Assembly (NCBI RefSeq): GCF_020480685.1
Contig: NZ_JAJAFU010000002.1
Location: 124,001-188,000 of the forward strand
Reading direction: 5' to 3'
DNA length: 64,000 nt
Source of the DNA: Deferrivibrio essentukiensis
Lineage (GTDB): Bacteria > Chrysiogenota > Deferribacteres > Deferribacterales > Deferrivibrionaceae
Shown: piece after piece, positions 1,646 to 64,000 of the stretch
How positions within the stretch are numbered: position 1 is the first letter of the stretch
How the letters are laid out: the number at the start of each line of letters is the position of its first letter
Made by a program: the position numbers and the translations under genes
The notes under the pieces: generated by a model
The model's input: only the letters and a program-made list of their open reading frames with translations
Databases searched by the model: none
What the model was told of the DNA's origin: nothing

Positions 1646-2620
1646 TTTTAGTGGTCTATTCATTAAATCTAACAACGATTGTTTAGGATTTTTATTGTTG
1701 TAAAGTATTTCGTATATTTCGTTTGATATTGGCATCTCTATATTCAGCTTTTCGGAAAGATTTTTTACTGCTTTTGCTGTAAAAACCCCTTCAGCCACCA
1801 TTTTCATATTTTTTAATATTTCTTCGAGTGTATACCCCTCTGCTATCTTAAGTCCTACACTTCTATTTCTACTTAAATCTCCCGTACATGTTAATACTAA
1901 ATCACCCATGCCACTTAAGCCCATAAAGGTTTCCTTTTTGCCACCAAGACTAATACCAAGTCTTGTTATTTCTGCAAGACCGCGTGTAATAATTCCTGCC
2001 CTTGCATTGTGTCCAAGTTGTAAACCGTCGCAAATACCTGTAGCAATGGCTATTACGTTTTTTATTGCACCTCCAACTTCTACTCCCACTACGTCATCAG
2101 TTGTATAAGCTCTAAAATATGAATTTGACAGTATTTCTTGCCATTTTTCTGCCTCTCTTTTATCTTTTGATGCAATACTTACTGCAGTCGGTTTCCTGTT
2201 TGCCACCTCTTTTGCAAATGAAGGACCTGAAAGAATTGACAGATTAGCATCTATCATATCTGAAATAATCTCTATTATTAGCTCACCCGTATTTATTTCA
2301 ATCCCTTTTGTTGCCACTATTATCGATTTACCTGCCAATAAACTGCCCATCTTCTTCAAAGTCTCTCTTGTAAATTGAGTTGGCACTGCCCATAAAACTT
2401 TGTCATACCCTCCCTTAAACTTTTCTAAAAATTCAGCTTTAAGATTTTTGTCAAGTATTGAACCTTTTAAAAATAGTGGATTTTCATTGTATAGATTTAT
2501 ACCTCTCACTACTTCTTGTTCTAATGCATATATTGTTACGTTGTAATCATTTTCGGACATAAGATTACCAAGTGCAGTGCCCCAACTTCCACCGCCAATT
2601 ACTGCTATTTTTCCTTGCAT
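1631..2620 (-). CDS. gpsA: NAD(P)H-dependent glycerol-3-phosphate dehydrogenase
   Basis: Reduces dihydroxyacetone phosphate to sn-glycerol-3-phosphate for phospholipid synthesis; cytoplasmic. The 329 residues begin with a Rossmann motif, IAVIGGGSWGTALG. The C-terminal half carries the family segment EVGGAIKNVIAIATG with the catalytic lysine, then GHNARAGIITRGLAE, and length matches the family. The ATG at 2620 is preceded by GGAGG; 13 more in-frame codons upstream are rejected because they would include that ribosome site. It is a single gene with ComFB-like divergent on one side and ilvE convergent on the other. Confidence 0.96.
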   Translation of the reverse strand: MQGKIAVIGGGSWGTALGNLMSENDYNVTIYALEQEVVRGINLYNENPLFLKGSILDKNLKAEFLEKFKGGYDKVLWAVPTQFTRETLKKMGSLLAGKSIIVATKGIEINTGELIIEIISDMIDANLSILSGPSFAKEVANRKPTAVSIASKDKREAEKWQEILSNSYFRAYTTDDVVGVEVGGAIKNVIAIATGICDGLQLGHNARAGIITRGLAEITRLGISLGGKKETFMGLSGMGDLVLTCTGDLSRNRSVGLKIAEGYTLEEILKNMKMVAEGVFTAKAVKNLSEKLNIEMPISNEIYEILYNNKNPKQSLLDLMNRPLKEEHA

Positions 2621-2642
2621 TTTATACCTCCGATGGTAAAAT
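2615..2642 (+). promoter_or_regulatory. Possible promoter for the ComFB-like gene
   Basis: TTGCAT (2615-2620) and TAAAAT (2637-2642) are 16 bases apart and end 27 bases before the ATG at 2670. The -35 overlaps the first bases of divergent gpsA. The match is moderate only. Confidence 0.3.
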
Positions 2643-2669
2643 GTATTATGTTGGTACAAAGGGGGTTTT

Positions 2670-2951
2670 ATGCCGAAAATTAATATATACGATTATGACA
2701 AAATACACAATATCAATGAGAAAAGGGTCTGGGAACTTTTAATTCAGCTCATTGAAAATGATGACACTATATGCACTTGTAGAGATTGTATACTTGATAT
2801 TGTTGCCATAACTTTGAACAATATTCCCCCACACTATCAGGTAAGTGAAGATGATTTTTCAGAAGCCTATAAAAAGATTAGCGATGAAGGTATACTTTCA
2901 GAGCTTTTAACTGCATCTGAAATTGTGAAAAAACATCCTCACCACTTATAA
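2670..2951 (+). CDS. ComFB-family small protein
   Basis: A 93-residue cytoplasmic protein of the late-competence ComFB family. The diagnostic segment is CTCRDCILDIVAITLNNIPP: Cys35, Cys37 and Cys40, followed by the helix and the Leu-Asn-x-x-Pro-Pro-x-Tyr motif. In Bacillus comFB sits in a competence operon, and some homologues bind nucleotide second messengers. Neither role can be inferred here, since no competence genes are adjacent. GGGGG lies just before the ATG. It stands alone on the plus strand between gpsA and the end of the nuo operon, and ends at a bidirectional terminator. Confidence 0.75.
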   Translation: MPKINIYDYDKIHNINEKRVWELLIQLIENDDTICTCRDCILDIVAITLNNIPPHYQVSEDDFSEAYKKISDEGILSELLTASEIVKKHPHHL

Positions 2952-2980
2952 AAAAAGCAGGCTTTTAGGCCTGCTTTTTA
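2951..2980. terminator. Bidirectional intrinsic terminator
   Basis: AGCAGGC (2956-2962), loop TTTTAG, GCCTGCT (2969-2975), flanked by an A run at 2951-2956 and a T run at 2975-2979. It can work on both strands, ending the ComFB-like gene (plus) and the nuo operon with its ferritin-like tail gene (minus). The minus-strand gene's stop codon (2978-2980) overlaps it. Confidence 0.85.
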
Positions 2981-3439
2981 ATTCTCACTGAGAACTATAT
3001 CCTCGTACATCTTTTGTATCGTATTTCTGTGTAACGACTCCTCAACAGCGAGTCGATTAAATACTTCCTCAGCAGGGGTACCACTATATTTTTCTGCGAG
3101 TTTTTCATAAAATACCCTTGAATTATCCTCATGCTTCATAGCTATTCTCAGAACATCCTGCACTGACATATCCTCAGTAATAACTTTTGGAAGGACAAGG
3201 TTAGTAATGCCAAGGTCTGTATAGTAGTATTTTGTATCAAGCCCCACACTGTCAATCTTACCGGTATCAATCATCTCCTGAATAAGATTTTTATGCTTAA
3301 CCTCTTCTTCTGCAAGCTCTTTTATTATTGTTTTGGCGCCCAAGTCACTTACGTAGTCATAAAGCTTCATATAAAACTCGTAAGCTAACTCTTCCTTTCT
3401 TTTAGCATCTTCCAATGCTTCTTTAATTGTTATTTCCAT
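2978..3439 (-). CDS. Ferritin-like diiron protein (rubrerythrin domain)
   Basis: A 153-residue four-helix-bundle protein of the rubrerythrin/ferritin-like superfamily. Metal ligands are visible as Glu16/Glu17 in the first helix, E46-x-x-H49 in EEEVKH, a third helix with HEDNSRVFYEKL, and EESLHR in the fourth. There is no C-terminal rubredoxin domain, so it is not a classical rubrerythrin. Likely roles are peroxide reduction or iron handling, but the substrate is unknown. It starts 8 bases after the nuoN stop with a GGTGAGGT ribosome site, so it is probably the last gene of the nuo operon. Confidence 0.8.
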   Translation of the reverse strand: MEITIKEALEDAKRKEELAYEFYMKLYDYVSDLGAKTIIKELAEEEVKHKNLIQEMIDTGKIDSVGLDTKYYYTDLGITNLVLPKVITEDMSVQDVLRIAMKHEDNSRVFYEKLAEKYSGTPAEEVFNRLAVEESLHRNTIQKMYEDIVLSEN

Positions 3440-3447
3440 ACCTCACC

Positions 3448-4875
3448 CTATACTAACATCATTTTTACTATGTTTATGAAAAATGATGGAAATACACCAA
3501 TTAAAAGGACAAATACAACTGCGATAAAAGTAGCAATTGAGCTGGCAGGCTTCATTTCAATTGAAGCATCGTATTCAGCCTCTTTGAAGTACATGTAAAT
3601 TGTTACTCTCATGTAGTAGTAACAAGCAATCGCACTATTTACCACACCGACTATAGCAAGCCACACAAGTCCACTCTTAATGGCAGCGGAAAATATATAA
3701 AATTTACCAACAAATCCAGCCAATGGCGGAATACCTGCGAGTGAAAACATAAATATTAACATTGCAAGTGAAGCAAGTGGATGCTTTTTGGAAAGACCTG
3801 CAAAACTTTCAAGTCTTTCATCATCAATTATTCCTTTATTTTTAAGCTGTCCAAGTATCGTAAAAGCACCAATATTCATAAAACCATAAATAATCATATA
3901 AAGGGCAATCGCTTTATATCCTAAATCATTTGCAGCAACAAGGCCAATTAGCATATAACCTGCATGTGAAATTGCGGAGTAAGCTAACATTCTTTTAACA
4001 TTGTTTTGTGCAATAGCCACAAGGTTACCATAAGTCATTGTAAGAACAGCTAAGATGGAGAAAAATAATTGCCACTGAACACTTGCTGGTTCAAGAGCAA
4101 CCATTACAAATCTTATAAGGGCGCCGAATGCAGCAGCTTTTGGTGCTACAGTCATAAACCCTGTAACCGGTGTTGGTGCTCCTGAATACACATCCGGAGC
4201 CCACATATGAAATGGCACAGCAGAAATTTTAAATGCAAATCCTGCAAGCATCATTACAAGACCAAGCTTAATGTTCAAGTTTTCTACGCCGTTTGTTCTC
4301 AACATTTCAGCTATGACAGAATACTTTGTACTTCCAGTATAACCATACACATAAGTTAAGCCGTACAACAGTATACCTGATGAAAAAGCACCAATTATGA
4401 AATACTTAATCCCAGCTTCATTTGATCTCTTATCCTTTTTATTGAAACCAGCCATTATGTACATAGCAATTGCCATTGTTTCAAGACCTAAGTAAAGTAC
4501 AGAAAGGTCTGTAGCGCTTACCATAAACATCATGCCAATTATACTAAAATATAGGATAGTATAATACTCACCCTTATTTATGCCATTAGCTTTCAAGTAG
4601 TCTACAGAGCCAAGCGTGGTTAGGATATAGGCAATTGCAAATACTATGAAAAATGCATATGCATACGAATCCCACACTAACATCTGATCAAACCCAACAA
4701 TCTTAAAACCTCCAACTGGCACAGATGCTAGCAGCGTTAGGAGGATAAAAGCGATTCCAAAATATCCAACTCCGGACTTTTTCTCATCCTTACTCATAAC
4801 ATCAATAACAATAAGCATTAATCCGAAAATGGTCATCAATATTTCTGGTAAAATTGAAACTATACTCTGACCCAT
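3448..4875 (-). CDS. nuoN: NADH-quinone oxidoreductase subunit N
   Basis: Membrane subunit of complex I, one of three antiporter-like proton-pumping subunits. The 475 residues are almost entirely hydrophobic with about 14 transmembrane segments. They include the conserved MYIMAGF, FKISAVPFHMWAPDVYSGAPTP region and AISHAGYMLIG. The Lys and His of that central segment belong to the proton path in known complex I. Length is normal. GGAGGGG precedes the ATG. It lies 13 bases downstream of nuoM and is the last nuo subunit gene. Confidence 0.96.
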   Translation of the reverse strand: MGQSIVSILPEILMTIFGLMLIVIDVMSKDEKKSGVGYFGIAFILLTLLASVPVGGFKIVGFDQMLVWDSYAYAFFIVFAIAYILTTLGSVDYLKANGINKGEYYTILYFSIIGMMFMVSATDLSVLYLGLETMAIAMYIMAGFNKKDKRSNEAGIKYFIIGAFSSGILLYGLTYVYGYTGSTKYSVIAEMLRTNGVENLNIKLGLVMMLAGFAFKISAVPFHMWAPDVYSGAPTPVTGFMTVAPKAAAFGALIRFVMVALEPASVQWQLFFSILAVLTMTYGNLVAIAQNNVKRMLAYSAISHAGYMLIGLVAANDLGYKAIALYMIIYGFMNIGAFTILGQLKNKGIIDDERLESFAGLSKKHPLASLAMLIFMFSLAGIPPLAGFVGKFYIFSAAIKSGLVWLAIVGVVNSAIACYYYMRVTIYMYFKEAEYDASIEMKPASSIATFIAVVFVLLIGVFPSFFINIVKMMLV

Positions 4876-10585: not shown

Positions 10586-11353
10586 TTATAATTTTTTTAT
10601 ATCTTTAAAAACTTCAACCAACTTTTCAACTTCGGGGTTATTAGGATAATTTTTACTTGCAGTTTCAAGGACTTTTTCTGCCTCGCCATATTGCGACAAT
10701 CCTATCAGAGCTAAGGAATAATTAAGCAATAGTGTTATATCCATTATCCCTCTGCTGTATGCCTTAAAATAACATTTGGATGCCTCTTCATAATCGTGCC
10801 TTGTAAAGTATAAATCGCCAAGCTTTTTATAAGCATCCAAATAGTCACTGTTGATCGCCAGAGTCCTTTTAAATAGCTCTTCTGCTTCTTTAATATTACC
10901 TAAATAGTACTCACATAACCCCAAATAATATACAGCTGCTGCATTTTCTTCATTATTCTCTTTAATCTCATTAAATATTTTTTTTGCTTCTTGCAGGTTA
11001 CCAATCTTAAAATAGACTGTCCCTAGCATGTATTTGGCTCTCATATTATCTTCAGCCAACTCTAACGCCTTAGATAGATATTGTATCGCCTCGGAAAACT
11101 TCATCAGCCTTGCACATGCAAGCCCAAGCCTATAATAATATTTGGCACTTTTTGGATTAAGGGAAACTGCATTTTTAAAATACCTCTCCGACTCACTGAG
11201 TCTGCCTGAGTCATACAAGGAAAGACCAAGATAGTAATTGGCTAAACCATCACTATCTTTACTGTCCTGTATATACCCACTAAGTATCTCAATTGCTCCG
11301 GAATAGTTTCCCATATTATACATCCTCAAAGCTTCCTGTAATTTATTATCCAT
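10586..11353 (-). CDS. Tetratricopeptide-repeat protein inside the nuo operon
   Basis: A 255-residue protein made almost wholly of seven contiguous 34-residue TPR units, running from about residue 3 to 240. Each unit has the Leu/Tyr-Gly-Leu and Ala-x-x-x-Phe/Leu pattern, for example [20 protein letters not shown]. There is no signal peptide or membrane segment, so it should be cytoplasmic. It overlaps the 3' end of nuoG by 8 bases and ends 10 bases before nuoH, so it is cotranscribed and probably translationally coupled. TPR arrays bind proteins; the position suggests a complex I assembly or stability factor. That role is inference, and I recognise no named family. Confidence 0.85.
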
Positions 11354-56318: not shown

Positions 56319-57626
56319 CTAACTCATTGCAATTTCTTTAACTTTTTTAATAGAATCTTCAAAGTTCCACTTTTCATTTACTTTCTGCTTCAAGAAATCG
56401 TTAATTTTTTCAATTTTAGCAATAGCCTCATCTATCCTTTTATTTGAACCTTTAACATAAGCACCAATATTTATTAAATCCTCAGCTTCATTGTAAGATG
56501 CTATTAAATCTCTTATTTTTCCTGCCATATCAAATATATCTTCATCAACTATCTCTTTCATCAATCTGCTTGCACTTGAAAGTACATCAATGGCTGGAAA
56601 ATGATTTTTGGCGGCAAGTCTTCTGTCAAGCACAATGTGACCATCAATAATAGACCTCACCGAATCCGCGATAGGGTCATTCATATCATCCCCTTCAACC
56701 AAAACGGTATAAAGCCCAGTCACTGTCCCTTCACCCTTTTTTGTGCCTGCCCTCTCAAGTAGCTTTGGCAATAGTGCAAATACTGATGGGGTATAACCTT
56801 TAGATGTGGGAGGCTCTCCAACGGTAAGTCCTATCTCTCTTTGTGCCATTGCAAACCTTGTCACCGAGTCCATCATAAACATCACATTTTTACCTTGTTT
56901 TCTAAAAAACTCAGCTATTGCTGTAGCAACAAATGCACCTAACTTTCTCACTAACGGAGACTGATCGCTGGTTGCTACAACGACAACACTCCTTTTAAGC
57001 CCTTCTTCCCCTAAATCCCTCTCTATGAATTCTCTTACTTCTCTCCCCCTTTCCCCAATAAGAGCAATTACATTTACTTCCGCAAGTGTATTTCTGGCAA
57101 TCATCCCAAGCAAAACACTCTTACCAACGCCACTACCGGCAAAAATACCTACTCTTTGTCCTTTGCCAACTGTAATCAAAGAATCTATTGCCTTAATCCC
57201 TGTAGGTATGGCATTTTTAATAATTTCTCTCTCCATAGGTTTGGGCGGCTCCGAATAAACAGGTACCAATTCATAATCTTTAATATCCCCTTGCCCATCA
57301 ATAGGGTTACCAAGGCCATCAAGGACTCTCCCCAGCAAATTTTCGGATACTTTAACAACATTTCCGTAGGAAACATTTTTAACTATACTCCCCGGAGCAA
57401 TCCCTTCATTCTCACCATATGGCATAAGCACAATTCTATCGTCCTTAAAACCTACAATCTCAGCTAAAACCTTTGACCCTGCAATATTTGTTACTTCACA
57501 TCTTGTGCCTATTCCAAGAAGGGGCCCGTCAGCTTCAATTGTAAGCCCGACTATTTTCGTGACCTTACCTTGAAGGGTAGGAGAAATTTTGGGATTAACT
57601 TTTTTAAGAACTCTTAAATTCTTCAT
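56319..57626 (-). CDS. fliI: Flagellar export ATPase FliI
   Basis: Hexameric ATPase that promotes export of flagellar proteins. The 435 residues have Walker A in VGIFAGSGVGKSVLLGMIAR, IALIGERGREVREFIERDLG, and the Walker B region NVMFMMDSVTRFAMAQREIG. GEPPTSKGYTPSVFALLPKLLERAG is diagnostic of FliI over F1-ATPase. It overlaps fliH by 23 bases, and the first 20 codons are lineage-specific. Confidence 0.97.
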   Translation of the reverse strand: MKNLRVLKKVNPKISPTLQGKVTKIVGLTIEADGPLLGIGTRCEVTNIAGSKVLAEIVGFKDDRIVLMPYGENEGIAPGSIVKNVSYGNVVKVSENLLGRVLDGLGNPIDGQGDIKDYELVPVYSEPPKPMEREIIKNAIPTGIKAIDSLITVGKGQRVGIFAGSGVGKSVLLGMIARNTLAEVNVIALIGERGREVREFIERDLGEEGLKRSVVVVATSDQSPLVRKLGAFVATAIAEFFRKQGKNVMFMMDSVTRFAMAQREIGLTVGEPPTSKGYTPSVFALLPKLLERAGTKKGEGTVTGLYTVLVEGDDMNDPIADSVRSIIDGHIVLDRRLAAKNHFPAIDVLSSASRLMKEIVDEDIFDMAGKIRDLIASYNEAEDLINIGAYVKGSNKRIDEAIAKIEKINDFLKQKVNEKWNFEDSIKKVKEIAMS

Positions 57627-58332
57627 AAAGCAGTTCTTTAAATTCTTTTATAAGACTATCGATTGTAAAATCTATCATCCCTATATTGGTTTTAACTTTC
57701 AAACCGCCTTTTAAAATATTTGGATCTGTCTCAATATCATAACCCAAATTCATATCTTCCACTGTCTCTTTATCTGAAGGTGAAACAATAAACGTAACAT
57801 CACTATACTCTTTTAATTTATCCAATATATTTTTTATAACACTTTCTATCAGTTTATCATTTACCTTTCTTTCAACACCTATTATTTCTGTTATAAAGGA
57901 AACGATCAATTTGGGCAGGCTTTCATCAAGCTCATCTATACTCTTCTTTATTTCTGACAATGTGTTGTTTACCTTTTCATATTCACTTGTAAGCATGTTC
58001 AGGTAATCCTTTTTCTCGGCTTCATACTTAGTTTTCTGTTCTGACAAAGCCTCATTTTTACCCTTCTTAAGCCCTTCTTGAAAACCCTTTTCATATCCTT
58101 TTTTTTCTGCCTCTTTCAGCAATTTTTCATCAAAAACAGGCTTCACATCTTTTATTTCTCCACCTGACTCAACTTTTAACCTTTCTATACTGTCAGGATT
58201 ATTAGCTGCACTGAAAGATGTAAGCTCTTTAAAGGGAAATTTTTTAACCCCTCTCTCCGCTGAAGTAAATGTTTTAAATGAATATGTCTGAACTTTACCG
58301 GTCGTTGATGACTTTATAATCTTTTTAGGCAT
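57604..58332 (-). CDS. fliH: Flagellar assembly protein FliH
   Basis: Binds and regulates FliI and links it to the export gate. The 242 residues have a low-complexity N-terminus, a charged coiled coil with the GxxxG-rich segment GYEKGFQEGLKKGKNEAL (about residues 78-95), and a C-terminal V-type ATPase E-like domain (SFITEIIGVERKVNDKLIES; GGLKVKTNIGMIDFTIDSLI). Situated between fliG and fliI as expected. Confidence 0.93.
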   Translation of the reverse strand: MPKKIIKSSTTGKVQTYSFKTFTSAERGVKKFPFKELTSFSAANNPDSIERLKVESGGEIKDVKPVFDEKLLKEAEKKGYEKGFQEGLKKGKNEALSEQKTKYEAEKKDYLNMLTSEYEKVNNTLSEIKKSIDELDESLPKLIVSFITEIIGVERKVNDKLIESVIKNILDKLKEYSDVTFIVSPSDKETVEDMNLGYDIETDPNILKGGLKVKTNIGMIDFTIDSLIKEFKELLYEEFKSS

Positions 58333-58340
58333 ACTTTATC

Positions 58341-59348
58341 CTAAACATATTGCTCTTCATCGCCACCTGAAATACTGACAACACCTTCCTCATCAAGTTC
58401 TCTTACTATTTCAACAATCTCATGTTGAGCTTTTTCCACATCTTTAAGCTTCACAGGACCCATGTAGTCCATCTCTTCCTTCATTGTCTCAACAGCTCGT
58501 TTTGACATAGATTCAAAAAACCTATTTTTAAGCTCTTCATCAGCCCCTTTAAGTGCAAGTGTAAGTGTGTTTTTGTCAGCTCTCTTTAAAATCTCCTGAA
58601 TAGCCTGCTGTCCAAGGCGCTTAATATCTTCAAACACAAACATCATATCTCTAATGCTTGCCACAAGCTCCGGAGCATCTTTTTCAAGCCTTTCAAGCGT
58701 CTGCTTACTTGTAGTCCTGTCCATACGGTTAAAAATTTCTGCTACCGACTTAACTCCACCTACCTCTACATTATAGGAGCTAATGGACTCAAATCTTTCT
58801 TCAAGCACTTTAGAAAGGGTCTTAACTACTGACGGTGAAATGTCTTGAAGGTTAGCAATCCGTATAGCCACCTCTGCCTTCAAATCTTCAGGAAGCTCTG
58901 CCAAAGACTCAGCCGCCTGAGTTGGATCAAGATGAGCAAGTATCAAGGCAATAGTCTGAGGGTGCTCATTTTGTATGAATTTTGCTAACTGTTTTGGTTC
59001 TATTTTTGTAAGAAATTCAAAGCCTGAAGATTGTTCTAATAATTTAGTTAATCTGTCTATAATTTTTCTTGCCCTTTCAGGACCGAGAGATTTTGTCAAT
59101 ACACTTTTAGCATAATCAAGACCACCTTTACTTATGAATTTCTTAGCCAAAAGCATATTGTAAAACTCTTCCACAACTGCTTCCATTGTATCAGGGTCAA
59201 CCATTTTTGTAAGGGCTATCTCCCTGGAAATATCTTGAACTTCGTCATCATCAAGCTCTCCCAAAATTTTGGAAGAAAGCTCCTCTCCTAATGTTATCAG
59301 AAGCATAGCAGCCTTTTTAATACCTGTCATATTTTGAGTATCAGCCAT
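58341..59348 (-). CDS. fliG: Flagellar motor switch protein FliG
   Basis: C-ring protein that contacts the stator and sets rotation. The 335 residues show GIKKAAMLLITLGEELSSKI at the start, the EHPQTIALILAHLDPTQAAESL armadillo segment, and the C-terminal torque domain MFVFEDIKRLGQQAIQEILK and MSKRAVETMKEEMDYMGPVK with conserved charges. Length is normal. It begins 4 bases after fliF. Confidence 0.97.
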   Translation of the reverse strand: MADTQNMTGIKKAAMLLITLGEELSSKILGELDDDEVQDISREIALTKMVDPDTMEAVVEEFYNMLLAKKFISKGGLDYAKSVLTKSLGPERARKIIDRLTKLLEQSSGFEFLTKIEPKQLAKFIQNEHPQTIALILAHLDPTQAAESLAELPEDLKAEVAIRIANLQDISPSVVKTLSKVLEERFESISSYNVEVGGVKSVAEIFNRMDRTTSKQTLERLEKDAPELVASIRDMMFVFEDIKRLGQQAIQEILKRADKNTLTLALKGADEELKNRFFESMSKRAVETMKEEMDYMGPVKLKDVEKAQHEIVEIVRELDEEGVVSISGGDEEQYV

Positions 59349-59352
59349 ACGC

Positions 59353-61029
59353 TTAAGCTCCGCCCTCTCTTATCCACGCTTTTATAAGATTTGCTATCAT
59401 TTCAGGGTCTTCATTTGCTGACTCTTCAATCTTTTTGAGCATAACCTTTGCTTTAACAGAATCAACATCCATTGGCACGCTTTCATCAAGCTCGGATTCT
59501 ATCTCTTTTTCAAGCTCCTCAAGTGTTTTTGGAAACTTTATATCATCATCTACCAACAGATTTAGCCCTTCACCTTTTCCAGCCGCTGCCCCGCCACCTA
59601 CTGCTGCAAGTGTGCCATATTTTGTTTCCTTAACCTCGCCAAGCCTTTTTATAATCCTTTTAAACACAAGGAGATAAAAAAGTAAAAATACCAAGACAGC
59701 AGACAAATATTTGGCACCTTTAAGTGCGTAATCTATGTACATTTGCCTTTTAGCTATAGTCACCTCACTAGCCGAAGCGGTAGTATCAAAAGAAACATTT
59801 GATACCTCTATTTTATCACCTCTATTCTCGTTAAAACCAACAGCATTAGCAACAAGATTTTTGATTCTTTCCACCTCTTCTGTAGTTCGCGGTACAAATT
59901 TTTGAACTTTTTTACCATTTACCTCTTCAATAACTACCTTATCATTTAAGACAACAGCAACAGTAAGCCTTTTTATCTCACCAGGACTTTTTAACTGCTT
60001 TGTAACGGTCTTACCAACCTCAAAATTTTGTACCTCATCCGTCTTACTGTATTGGGAATTACCACTATTTCCAGTAATATCAGGCTCTGCCAAGTTTGAT
60101 TGAACACCTGGTACACCTTGTGGCACATTTTTTGAGTTAGTACTTGACACTTCCGTAGACTGCTGAGACCTAAGCACCGGGTTAGGGTCATACTCCTCTT
60201 TAGTGACTTCTTCTTTATTGAAATCCATTTCAAGGCTTACCTGTACTACTGCATTACCTGCTCCCAACACACTGTCAAGAAGACTTGAAACTTTATTTTT
60301 TAAATATGACTCCCTTTTCTTTGTATATTCAAGCTGAGTCTGACTAAGCATTACACCCAGATTATCTTCATTCAAAAAATCACTTAAAAGTCTGCCCTGA
60401 GTATCTACTATCTGAACATTTTCAAGTTTTAGACCTTTTACTGCGCCGGCTACAAGGGACGCAATAGCTTTTACCTGACCTCTATCGATAGGGCCATTTA
60501 AATTTAAGATGACCGCTGCCTTAGCTTCACTTTCCTCACTTATAAAAAGTCTCTCCTTAGGGATAGTAAGATGTACCCTTGCCTCTTTCACTTCATTCAG
60601 GCTTGCGATTGTCCTTGCCAACTCACCCTGCAATGCTCTTTGATAGTTTACATTCTGGACAAATTCAGTCATCCCAAAGCTTGTCTTGTCAAACAGTTCA
60701 AATCCTGCCCCGCCACCGCTTGGAACACCCTCTTTTGCCAGTTCAATCCTTGTTTCATATACAAAATTTTGAGGAACCTCTATAGTCCTACCACTATCTT
60801 TCAACTGGTAAGGCACTTGCCTTTCCTTTAACTTTTCTATAACAGATGCGGCATCTTGTTGATTTAAATTATAATAAAGGGTCTTGTAAACAGGCTTGTT
60901 TGCCCAGACGATAAGAACAATGGATGAAATAATTACTGCAAAAACAGCTCCCACAATGGAGACCTTTTGCATCAGATTCATTTTTGAAAAAACTTCAAGA
61001 AACTGCGAATAAATATCTTTTAAAGTCAT
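59353..61029 (-). CDS. fliF: Flagellar MS-ring protein FliF
   Basis: Forms the MS ring in the cytoplasmic membrane, the base of the flagellum. The 558 residues have a first transmembrane helix (about residues 22-45), ring-building motifs with VPSGGGAGFELFDKTSFGMT and ARVHLTIPKERLFISEE, and a large periplasmic loop. A second helix (about 445-465) and the C-terminal FliG-binding tail (EDPEMIANLIKAWIREGG) complete it. It follows fliE by 3 bases. Confidence 0.97.
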   Translation of the reverse strand: MTLKDIYSQFLEVFSKMNLMQKVSIVGAVFAVIISSIVLIVWANKPVYKTLYYNLNQQDAASVIEKLKERQVPYQLKDSGRTIEVPQNFVYETRIELAKEGVPSGGGAGFELFDKTSFGMTEFVQNVNYQRALQGELARTIASLNEVKEARVHLTIPKERLFISEESEAKAAVILNLNGPIDRGQVKAIASLVAGAVKGLKLENVQIVDTQGRLLSDFLNEDNLGVMLSQTQLEYTKKRESYLKNKVSSLLDSVLGAGNAVVQVSLEMDFNKEEVTKEEYDPNPVLRSQQSTEVSSTNSKNVPQGVPGVQSNLAEPDITGNSGNSQYSKTDEVQNFEVGKTVTKQLKSPGEIKRLTVAVVLNDKVVIEEVNGKKVQKFVPRTTEEVERIKNLVANAVGFNENRGDKIEVSNVSFDTTASASEVTIAKRQMYIDYALKGAKYLSAVLVFLLFYLLVFKRIIKRLGEVKETKYGTLAAVGGGAAAGKGEGLNLLVDDDIKFPKTLEELEKEIESELDESVPMDVDSVKAKVMLKKIEESANEDPEMIANLIKAWIREGGA

Positions 61030-61032
61030 AAA

Positions 61033-61338
61033 TTATACCTGAGTCCTCATTATCTCCTGATAAGCTTCCAAAAGCTTATTCCTTACTTCCATCATAAGTT
61101 TCAAAGAAACATCGGCCTTTTGCAAAGCTATCATGGTTTCATGTATATTTTGTGTCTCTCCGTTTAATACTTTTTTTATCGCCTCATCTGCATTAAGCTG
61201 AGCATCATTTACATCCTTGAGTGCATCTTTAAGCAAATCTCCAAAGTTAACGTTACTCTCACTGCCTTTAGATTCACTCTTTTTTTCAGTATCAAGTTTG
61301 TTTGGCAACAAAAAATCTATTCTGTTAATCTCAGCCAT
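61033..61338 (-). CDS. fliE: Flagellar hook-basal body protein FliE
   Basis: Connects the MS ring to the rod. The 101 residues contain NFGDLLKDALKDVNDAQLNADEAI and the C-terminal MIALQKADVSLKLMMEVRNKLLEAYQEIMR, both standard. GAGGGAG precedes the ATG. An 80-base gap separates it from flgC and holds only AT-rich sequence with no clear terminator. Confidence 0.96.
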   Translation of the reverse strand: MAEINRIDFLLPNKLDTEKKSESKGSESNVNFGDLLKDALKDVNDAQLNADEAIKKVLNGETQNIHETMIALQKADVSLKLMMEVRNKLLEAYQEIMRTQV

Positions 61339-61418
61339 AGCTCCCTCTTTTTTAATTATAACAAAAATATTCTTATTTACAATACTATAATTTATCTATT
61401 CACTCTATATTTTAAACC

Positions 61419-61823
61419 TTAAGCCCTGCCAATTTCAAGCGCTCTTAAGGCAAGCTGCTTTGCAGTATTTAAAACAGTTAAATTAGACTCATAACTCCTT
61501 TGTGCCTCAAGCATATTAACCATTTCCTCCACGGGATTAACATTGGGATATCTCACATACCCTTCTTCATCGGCATCAGGATGCCCCGGCTCAAATTTCA
61601 ATATAAAAGGTTTGTCATCCTCAATAACGTCTTGCACCTTAACTCCCCCAGCCATCTCACCTTCCAACACTTGCTCAAAAATCACATCCTTTCTTCTGTA
61701 AGGCTCGCCATTTTCACCCCTCGTAGTATTGGCATTGGCAAGATTGGCGGAAATTACATTAATTCTTATTCTTTGAGCAGACAATCCTGTCGCAGATAAT
61801 TTCATTACATCAAAAAAACTCAT
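61419..61823 (-). CDS. flgC: Flagellar proximal rod protein FlgC
   Basis: Rod subunit exported by the flagellar type III system. The 134 residues have the rod-family N-terminal motif SATGLSAQRIRINVISANLANANTTR and the C-terminal VEEMVNMLEAQRSYESNLTVLNTAKQLAL. The interior YVRYPNVNPVEE is typical of FlgC. It starts 9 bases after flgB. Confidence 0.97.
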   Translation of the reverse strand: MSFFDVMKLSATGLSAQRIRINVISANLANANTTRGENGEPYRRKDVIFEQVLEGEMAGGVKVQDVIEDDKPFILKFEPGHPDADEEGYVRYPNVNPVEEMVNMLEAQRSYESNLTVLNTAKQLALRALEIGRA

Positions 61824-61832
61824 ACTCTACCC

Positions 61833-62234
61833 CTATCTACCTGTTATAGCGGTTTTTAGTTTTGTAAACTGATAACCTGTTAACTGGGATAACTCCGAAT
61901 ATAAAACCCCATTAGCTGATAATTCATACATTTCCAAATCTATATTTACATCATTTCCATCATTCCTCAGTGAAGGACTATTCCTAAATTCGGTATTAAT
62001 AAAACCTGCACTGCTACCACTGCTTTTTATATGCTTTTCATCAGTAGTTTTAAGTGATAATTTTTGCCCACCAGAAAAATATTCCTGCATAGCTTTTTTA
62101 AAATCTATATTTTTTGACTTATAGCCTGGTGTATCTATATTTGCTATATTTTCCGCTATTACCTTATTTTTTAATGATGACACGTTTAGTGCCGTACTTA
62201 AATCATTTATCAATCCGGTGTTTAAAAATTTCAT
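61833..62234 (-). CDS. flgB: Flagellar rod protein FlgB
   Basis: First gene of the basal-body operon and a rod subunit. The 133 residues carry the family motif NKVIAENIANIDTPGYKSKNIDF and end LSQLTGYQFTKLKTAITGR, typical of FlgB. AGGAGG lies 5 bases before ATG 62234. A sigma-54-like promoter lies about 30 bases upstream. Confidence 0.96.
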   Translation of the reverse strand: MKFLNTGLINDLSTALNVSSLKNKVIAENIANIDTPGYKSKNIDFKKAMQEYFSGGQKLSLKTTDEKHIKSSGSSAGFINTEFRNSPSLRNDGNDVNIDLEMYELSANGVLYSELSQLTGYQFTKLKTAITGR

Positions 62235-62259: not shown

Positions 62260-62276
62260 ATCAAAATACGTGCCAA
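62260..62276 (-). promoter_or_regulatory. Sigma-54-like promoter upstream of flgB
   Basis: Minus strand TTGGCACGTATTTTGAT matches the sigma-54 consensus TTGGCACGnnnnTTGCT at all but one fixed base, with A instead of C at the -12 GC. Transcription would start near 62250, 16 bases before flgB. Sigma-54 control of early flagellar operons is well known in several phyla. Confidence 0.55.
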
Positions 62277-62358: not shown

Positions 62359-64000
62359 ATGTTAGATATGGAATTCGCAGACAGATATATAACAAAAGAC
62401 TTTTTGGGAGATTCCCCTGCGGGAAAATATTTTGCCGGTGAAGATAAGAAATTTAACAGAAAAGTATTAATCAAGATTCTCGACAATGCTAATGAAGATA
62501 CCAATAAAGATATTGAGAAGCGTTTTGACAACCTAACAAAGCTCTCCGGGCAACTTATCCATCCCAATATCTTAACAACAATAGATTATTTCAAAACGGA
62601 TGATAAACTTGTGTCTGTTCACGAATATATTGACCCAAACCGCACAATGCTTGATTTAAAAAAGATTTCTCTACTCTCAATGCAGGAAAAGCTTAAAATT
62701 GCAATAAACCTCGCCGATGCATTGGATTTTTGTCACAAAATAGGTTTTTTCCATAATAATATTTTGATGGATTCCCTTTATCTAAATGACAATATTAACA
62801 TAAAAATAGACCACTGCGGATTAAAAAGGGTGGTAAAAAACGAAACCCTTTACAGTGAGCTCGGCATAGAATCAAAAACGCCATTATTTTACCCTCCTGA
62901 ATATTTCAAAAAAAGCTACAACCATTACTCTGTAGATATTTTTCAGTACGGCTGTTTTCTATATACTCTGTTTGTGGAAATTTACCCTTTCGGAGAAGAG
63001 ATTTCCGAAGAAAATATAAGAAAATTAAAAAATCTTGAATATTTTGACCCATCTTGTTTTGCAGATGTAAACAAGAATATAATCAGTATCATTAAAACAT
63101 GTCTTAACAAAAATCCGGAAGAAAGATTTAGAAACTTTACTGATATACTATTTGAGCTCAAAGATGCAGAAGATGAAAAAAAGATAAAAGCTGCAGGTTA
63201 CAGTTTTAAAATAAAAGACAATAAGACTTTTATGATTGTGCCTAAAGGGTACAAAGCCGATATTGAGGAGATAGAAAAAAAACTTATATCTCAAAATATA
63301 TACAATTATGACATCAACAAAATCAAGTATGCTATCCTTTACTCTAACGGAAAAGAGATTGAAATCGGTGAAAACTTCAAAAAAATTGACCCTACACTTT
63401 TTGAACAAACCGAAATTGAGATTAATAAAGACGCTACTAAAGCTTTTTTTGTCAAGAAGAAAACTTTACAACTGACACCTGAGGAAATAACTTTTATACT
63501 CAAAAAAAATGGTATCAAACACGGAATAGTGCCTGAAAATATACAAAAAATTATCGATTCAGAGCCTGAGCAGTCAATCCTTATTGCTGAAGCTACCCCA
63601 CCTGAAGATGGGCTTGATTCTTATTTTGTCTACTTTTTTGAGAAAGATAATGTACTTAAACCAACTATAGAAAATGATATAGCAGATTTTAAAAATATAT
63701 CGGTATTCCAAGAAGTTAAAAAAAATGAGATATTATGTTTGAAAATTCCATTTACTTTGGGAAAAGATGGAAAAGATGTTTTTGGAAGACCTATAAAAGC
63801 AAAACCCGGAAAAGATTTTAAAATGCCTGCAGGCAAAAATACTTATATCTCAAGTGATGGGTGTAAGTTAATGTCCACCATTGACGGACTTATAGATTAT
63901 CAGAATTCAAAAATTAATGTTAAAGAAGTGATTATAATCCACGGAGATGTAGACTATTCTACCGGCAACATAAAATATCATGGAGATGTAATAATAAAGG
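62359..64000 (+). CDS. Pseudokinase fused to FapA/DUF342, 5' part
   Basis: An open frame running off the window (at least 547 residues). Residues 5 to about 265 have a protein-kinase fold: the VAIK lysine is kept (VLIK, Lys39), but the HRD loop reads His132-Asn133-Asn134. The DFG position reads His152-Cys153-Gly154 (KIDHCGL). PPE (179-181), DIFQYG (193-198) and NPEERF (252-257) keep the C-lobe signature. From about residue 270 the protein becomes FapA-like: PEDGLDSYF (415 on), GKDGKDVFGRP, and GDVDYSTGNIKYHGDV at 529 onward. FapA proteins act in flagellar assembly. Loss of both catalytic aspartates suggests a pseudokinase. Starts possible at 62359 or 62368; no ribosome site is visible. Confidence 0.85.
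   Translation, partial: MLDMEFADRYITKDFLGDSPAGKYFAGEDKKFNRKVLIKILDNANEDTNKDIEKRFDNLTKLSGQLIHPNILTTIDYFKTDDKLVSVHEYIDPNRTMLDLKKISLLSMQEKLKIAINLADALDFCHKIGFFHNNILMDSLYLNDNINIKIDHCGLKRVVKNETLYSELGIESKTPLFYPPEYFKKSYNHYSVDIFQYGCFLYTLFVEIYPFGEEISEENIRKLKNLEYFDPSCFADVNKNIISIIKTCLNKNPEERFRNFTDILFELKDAEDEKKIKAAGYSFKIKDNKTFMIVPKGYKADIEEIEKKLISQNIYNYDINKIKYAILYSNGKEIEIGENFKKIDPTLFEQTEIEINKDATKAFFVKKKTLQLTPEEITFILKKNGIKHGIVPENIQKIIDSEPEQSILIAEATPPEDGLDSYFVYFFEKDNVLKPTIENDIADFKNISVFQEVKKNEILCLKIPFTLGKDGKDVFGRPIKAKPGKDFKMPAGKNTYISSDGCKLMSTIDGLIDYQNSKINVKEVIIIHGDVDYSTGNIKYHGDVIIK

Follow-up and report, generated by a model that had tools for sequence, protein, structure and literature searches.

The window, by which we mean the whole stretch of 64,000 nucleotides that was analysed (G000:C2:124001-188000 of a 2.36-Mb genome), ends inside a gene whose product joins a protein-kinase fold to a FapA-type domain. 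Its reading frame first opens at the ATG at position 62359 and remains open to the window edge. The gene itself probably starts at the ATG at position 62368, because only this ATG is kept in both congeners. A basal-body operon lies on the opposite strand and diverges from the fusion gene, with a sigma-54-like site between the two (Table 1).

Table 1. Features of the fusion locus. Positions are those of the window unless a contig is named.
Feature	Position	Strand	Remarks
flgB-flgC-fliE-fliF-fliG-fliH-fliI basal-body operon	56319..62234	-	Divergent from fusion gene; genes named from a reading of their sequences
Sigma-54-like site TGGCACGTATTTTG pointing to flgB	62262..62275	-	Outline conserved in two congeners; putative function
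Pseudokinase-FapA fusion gene	62368..64000, continuing past the window edge to the stop at G000:C2:188773	+	804 aa counted from ATG 62359
Pseudokinase domain	62392..63129 (residues 12-257 of the 804-aa frame)	+	Pfam Pkinase, AlphaFold2, Foldseek
Beta3 lysine (K39 of the frame, K36 from ATG 62368)	62473..62475	+	Lys in 8/10, Arg in 2/10 orthologues
HNN replacing HRD	62752..62760	+	His and second Asn invariant (HxN) in 10/10 orthologues
HCG replacing DFG	62812..62820	+	Asp position is His, Asn or Phe in orthologues
Linker module of ~70 aa (residues about 281-348)	63199..63402	+	Resembles FapA_N alpha-beta hairpin; alignment, profile matches
FapA_N domain	63412..63906 (residues 352-516)	+	Pfam PF20250, E=2e-41
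Start of FapA beta-solenoid (MinC_C-like)	63928..64000	+	Pfam PF03961, E=3e-54; AlphaFold2

An initial annotation, made from the letters of the window, had read a kinase fold and a FapA-type domain in one frame, and the profile search and structure prediction that it proposed bear out this architecture. The Pfam Pkinase model matches the kinase region with E=9.9e-27 and 94 bits (cut-off 31.7), FapA_N scores 141.7 bits (cut-off 27), and FapA scores 184.8 bits over residues 524-799 (cut-off 31); no other Pfam domain in the fusion protein exceeds its cut-off. Scores so far above the cut-offs are not attributable to chance, and ten intact orthologues rule out a chance frame or a sequencing artefact. 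The 804-aa protein is therefore a member of the FapA family with complete FapA_N and FapA domains. The part of it inside the window comprises only the kinase, FapA_N and the opening strands of the FapA solenoid; beyond the edge the beta-solenoid goes on, with a helical hairpin in the AlphaFold2 model. The linker module that precedes FapA_N is also found at the N terminus of kinase-less FapA proteins of other phyla, and its profile matches begin at model positions 235-284 in G105, G150, G229, G363, G084 and G240. One linker-module FapA (L113, G240:C36, 4630-8885) adjoins genes that resemble those for a sensor protein and for a regulator of the sigma-54 activator type, a possible two-component unit.

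The kinase part on its own is modelled by AlphaFold2 with a pLDDT of 87.7 and a pTM of 0.89, and the whole fusion protein with a pLDDT of 79, both from an alignment of the ten orthologues. In Foldseek, the kinase-part model matches structures of Aurora A with a best E of 3e-15 and TM-scores of about 0.7-0.85, and the best PDB sequence matches are the S. aureus PknB/Stk1 chains 4eqm and 9ymt. By the Pkinase score, the pTM and the Foldseek match alike, this region has a bilobal kinase fold.

The changed HRD and DFG motifs and the kept PPE and DxxxxG motifs, on which pseudokinase status was initially proposed, are all present, and the loss of catalytic residues extends deeper than had been noted. 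None of the ten orthologues retains the HRD Asp, the DFG Asp or the catalytic-loop Lys and Asn of an active Hanks-type kinase, the Lys being replaced by Leu, Tyr or Phe and the metal-binding Asn by Ser in every one. The glycine-rich loop and the alphaC Glu have likewise gone from all ten, with GxGxxG reduced to PxG. What is kept consists only of the beta3 Lys (or Arg) and of fold-stabilising residues, namely the invariant APE Pro-Glu, the alphaF Asp and Gly, and the Arg partner. The beta3 motif is VLIK and not the VAIK first reported, and two orthologues carry Arg in place of its Lys. The pocket nevertheless has an invariant set of its own (H129, N131, D135, S136, K146 and D148, numbered from the ATG at 62368), in which D135 and D148 each stand one residue ahead of a canonical metal ligand; the hinge Glu86 and the Asp codon directly before HCG (62809-62811) are invariant as well. 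A shifted alignment that takes D148 as the DFG Asp was rejected, since K146, hydrophobic residues and F150 fix the register.

Several uses of such a domain can be weighed against these residues. In one, ATP or some other nucleotide would occupy the pocket without being turned over, and FapA would be switched by the energy charge. The retained beta3 Lys/Arg, the invariant hinge Glu86 and a pocket set that includes D135 and D148 are consistent with such a sensor, but the P-loop glycines, alphaC Glu, DFG Asp and metal-binding Asn, and with them the nucleotide and metal ligands, are gone in all orthologues. ATP sensing, which the initial annotation had put forward, is weakened as a result, and we consider a nucleotide sensor of any kind quite improbable. 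It could also be argued from the lost catalytic motifs that the kinase part is non-functional baggage of a gene fusion. This is hardly credible, because the fold is kept in ten orthologues over four families and the dN/dS of the kinase part, about 0.04-0.14, is similar to that of the FapA part, which indicates strong purifying selection and not decay. Judged by its sequence, the domain is dead as a kinase yet under selection.

Full-length fusions occur in four families of the order Deferribacterales, in 10 of its 46 genomes, and the metagenome-assembled genome Deferribacteraceae bacterium M2_7_5_bin.3 is 70% identical over the fusion. Between families the orthologues are 33-46% identical, and the pocket columns remain invariant across this divergence. 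Such conservation would fit an alternative catalysis on the kinase scaffold, of the kind for which SelO and SidJ set a precedent, for example AMPylation or glutamylation (PMC12599244). We regard this as very unlikely: the metal-binding pair is missing from its canonical position, and the signature is unlike that of any known active pseudokinase compared. More broadly, the kept Lys/Arg and the conserved pocket are compatible with an unusual ligand or reaction, ATP sensing being less likely.

The FapA parts of the fusions form one clade (support 100/100) that groups with the linker-module FapA proteins of other phyla and not with ordinary Deferribacterales paralogues (93/92). Ordinary paralogues are also present in carriers of three of the families (f1, f8 and f6). 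The two ordinary paralogues of the genome analysed here (L005:3919-5523 and L006:3892-5427) adjoin PAS/receiver and GAF histidine-kinase-like genes and not flagellar genes. The f3 genomes G004 and G011 lack both FliG and a full FapA; a 270-aa frame with a weak FapA-like match is all that they keep.

A survey for further kinase-FapA proteins, as initially proposed, found both domains covered by a full-length profile only at the ten Deferribacterales loci among 385 genomes. We rejected the idea that such fusions are widespread, as the long FapA frames of other phyla consist of repeated FapA and Jag-like parts or carry a receiver domain, with no kinase; one of those fetched (G036:C33) is an ordinary FapA. 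Besides the fusion, no Pkinase match above the Pfam cut-off was found in the nine carriers searched. Genomes of family f2 have an extra weak, sub-threshold match in a protein of ~560 aa, and the non-carrier G038 has a strong one. A role as allosteric partner to an ordinary active Hanks kinase is thereby excluded for the fusion, the sole above-cut-off match in these nine carriers, and thus the pseudokinase appears to lack any such partner in the cell. Being the only kinase-like protein found in the carrier genomes searched, the fusion probably serves in binding or sensing and not as an enzyme.

For most pseudokinases known so far, the accepted role is to partner an active kinase, and mycobacterial MviN works alongside active PknB. 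In MviN and in EssB/YukC, as in the fusion, the pseudokinase is a protein-interaction module joined to a cell-envelope or machine component; unlike MviN, the fusion comes from a genome in which the search turned up no active Hanks kinase. Compared with the bacterial Hanks-type Ser/Thr kinases PknB/Stk1, the fusion shares the fold but has none of the catalytic residues except the beta3 Lys, and no transmembrane or PASTA part was found in it. Here the sole detectable member of the kinase fold in its genome is kept in four families as part of a flagellar factor. Scaffolding or ligand binding is thereby uncoupled from phosphotransfer, which provides a natural test of what the kinase fold does without kinases.

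A 2025 review recognises seven bacterial pseudokinase families, ActPs1-3, GLW, CP1, DYD and DLHK, in which, as here, a cytosolic dead-kinase domain is joined to another domain (PMC12599244). By the families' descriptions, none of the seven fits the fusion. In CP1 the three motifs likewise suffer scattered losses, but membership requires a COG3899 domain, and the fusion has none by Pfam models, the models used in our search. DLHK keeps the HRD Asp where all ten orthologues have HxN, and GLW is defined by a GLW motif that the fusion does not fit. The text of the review has no mention of FapA, DUF342, flagella or Deferribacteres. The claim that the fusion was undescribed also held: among open-access papers on FapA/DUF342 with kinases or pseudokinases, we found no account of a kinase or pseudokinase fused to FapA or DUF342. 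The architecture is new, and the domain, set apart from the described families by their descriptions, probably represents a new pseudokinase family.

The role of the FapA part was assessed from its neighbours and from co-occurrence. The initial annotation had taken placement opposite the basal-body operon as support for a flagellar function. The divergence from flgB does hold within the fusion's own genus (three genomes), but it is found only there, and in three other families the neighbours are unrelated; HDOD genes adjoin the fusion in f2, moaE in f1 and f8, and arg/sdh genes in f6. Among genomes outside the phylum, FliG is present in 82 of the 87 that have FapA and in 62 of the 247 that do not (odds ratio 49, p=9e-32, near relatives unweighted). 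FliG is also present in all ten fusion carriers, which is weak evidence by itself because most of the order is flagellate, and FlhF is above the cut-off in each of the five carriers tested. In flagellar superoperons, FapA is also a neighbour of flhF, flhG and sigma-28 genes (PMC11607428). The patchy occurrence of the fusion within the order implies that it is dispensable for flagella.

In five carriers searched, no MinC was found above the cut-off, and the only MinC_C-like matches were to the fusion solenoid itself (three of the five, all sub-threshold). We considered whether the fusion replaces MinC and rejected this, as a sub-threshold MinC_C match of the solenoid is all that would link the two. 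The missing MinC, the neighbours that vary by family and the two ordinary paralogues beside histidine kinases could be reconciled with a non-flagellar regulator, in which the FapA part would be a cytoplasmic scaffold for division, polarity, two-component or HDOD signalling and the proximity to flgB would be accidental. Set against the strong association of FapA with FliG across phyla and a flagellate host in every case, this explanation is unlikely. A flagellar role is favoured, because FapA genomes outside the phylum are overwhelmingly flagellate and FliG is present in the ten carriers.

In Vibrio, FapA is regulated by dephospho-EIIA-Glc and is brought to the pole by HubP (PMC6877527, PMC12918733). 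Like Vibrio vulnificus FapA, a representative of the FapA/DUF342 proteins (PF03961 with PF20250), the fusion has a complete FapA_N, a beta-solenoid with coiled coil and flagellate hosts. It differs in its added N-terminal pseudokinase, and EIIA-Glc (PTS_EIIA_1) was absent from all five carriers tested. The comparison points to FapA inputs that can be swapped for one another: Vibrio FapA binds EIIA-Glc, the fusion carries a pseudokinase, and L076 has a receiver domain. The last of these (G169:C126, frame 2062-4065) is a FapA of another phylum that ends in a response-regulator receiver-like domain, and is another fusion of FapA with signalling.

We propose that the protein is a FapA-type flagellar factor with an orphan, dead Hanks-type kinase as its input domain, which would not phosphorylate but would bind a partner or ligand, and to this reading we give an even chance. 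The fusion would act in the polar assembly or placement of flagella, with the kinase fold retained as a docking or ligand-binding platform that fills the role played by EIIA-Glc for Vibrio FapA. A bound partner protein or small molecule would alter the assembly of FapA_N and the solenoid, pole finding or target binding. We infer this direction from input to output, and with it the switching of FapA by the kinase-like part that was proposed initially. The target of the solenoid could plausibly be the MinD-like ATPase FlhG, because the solenoid resembles MinC_C, albeit below threshold. Somewhat doubtful, and offered as a tentative extension, is the more specific possibility that a new pseudokinase family, with no active Hanks kinase detected in its host, takes in the signal for a FapA flagellar factor, and that its non-canonical pocket (HxN...DS, KxD) binds a ligand or performs a reaction through which a metabolic or surface signal, instead of EIIA-Glc, is coupled to the assembly or position of flagella.

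Two further genes deserve a brief description. A MoaE-like gene (L004:4775-5170; G000:C2:188775-189170) starts one base after the stop codon of the fusion; it is the sole MoaE match in the genome, has counterparts directly downstream of the fusion in the f8 genomes and, by eye, seems to be without a counterpart of the second catalytic lysine at the C terminus of E. coli MoaE. Elsewhere in the window, a TPR-repeat gene (10586-11353) separates the nuoG-like gene from the nuoH-like gene within the operon for NADH dehydrogenase (nuo).
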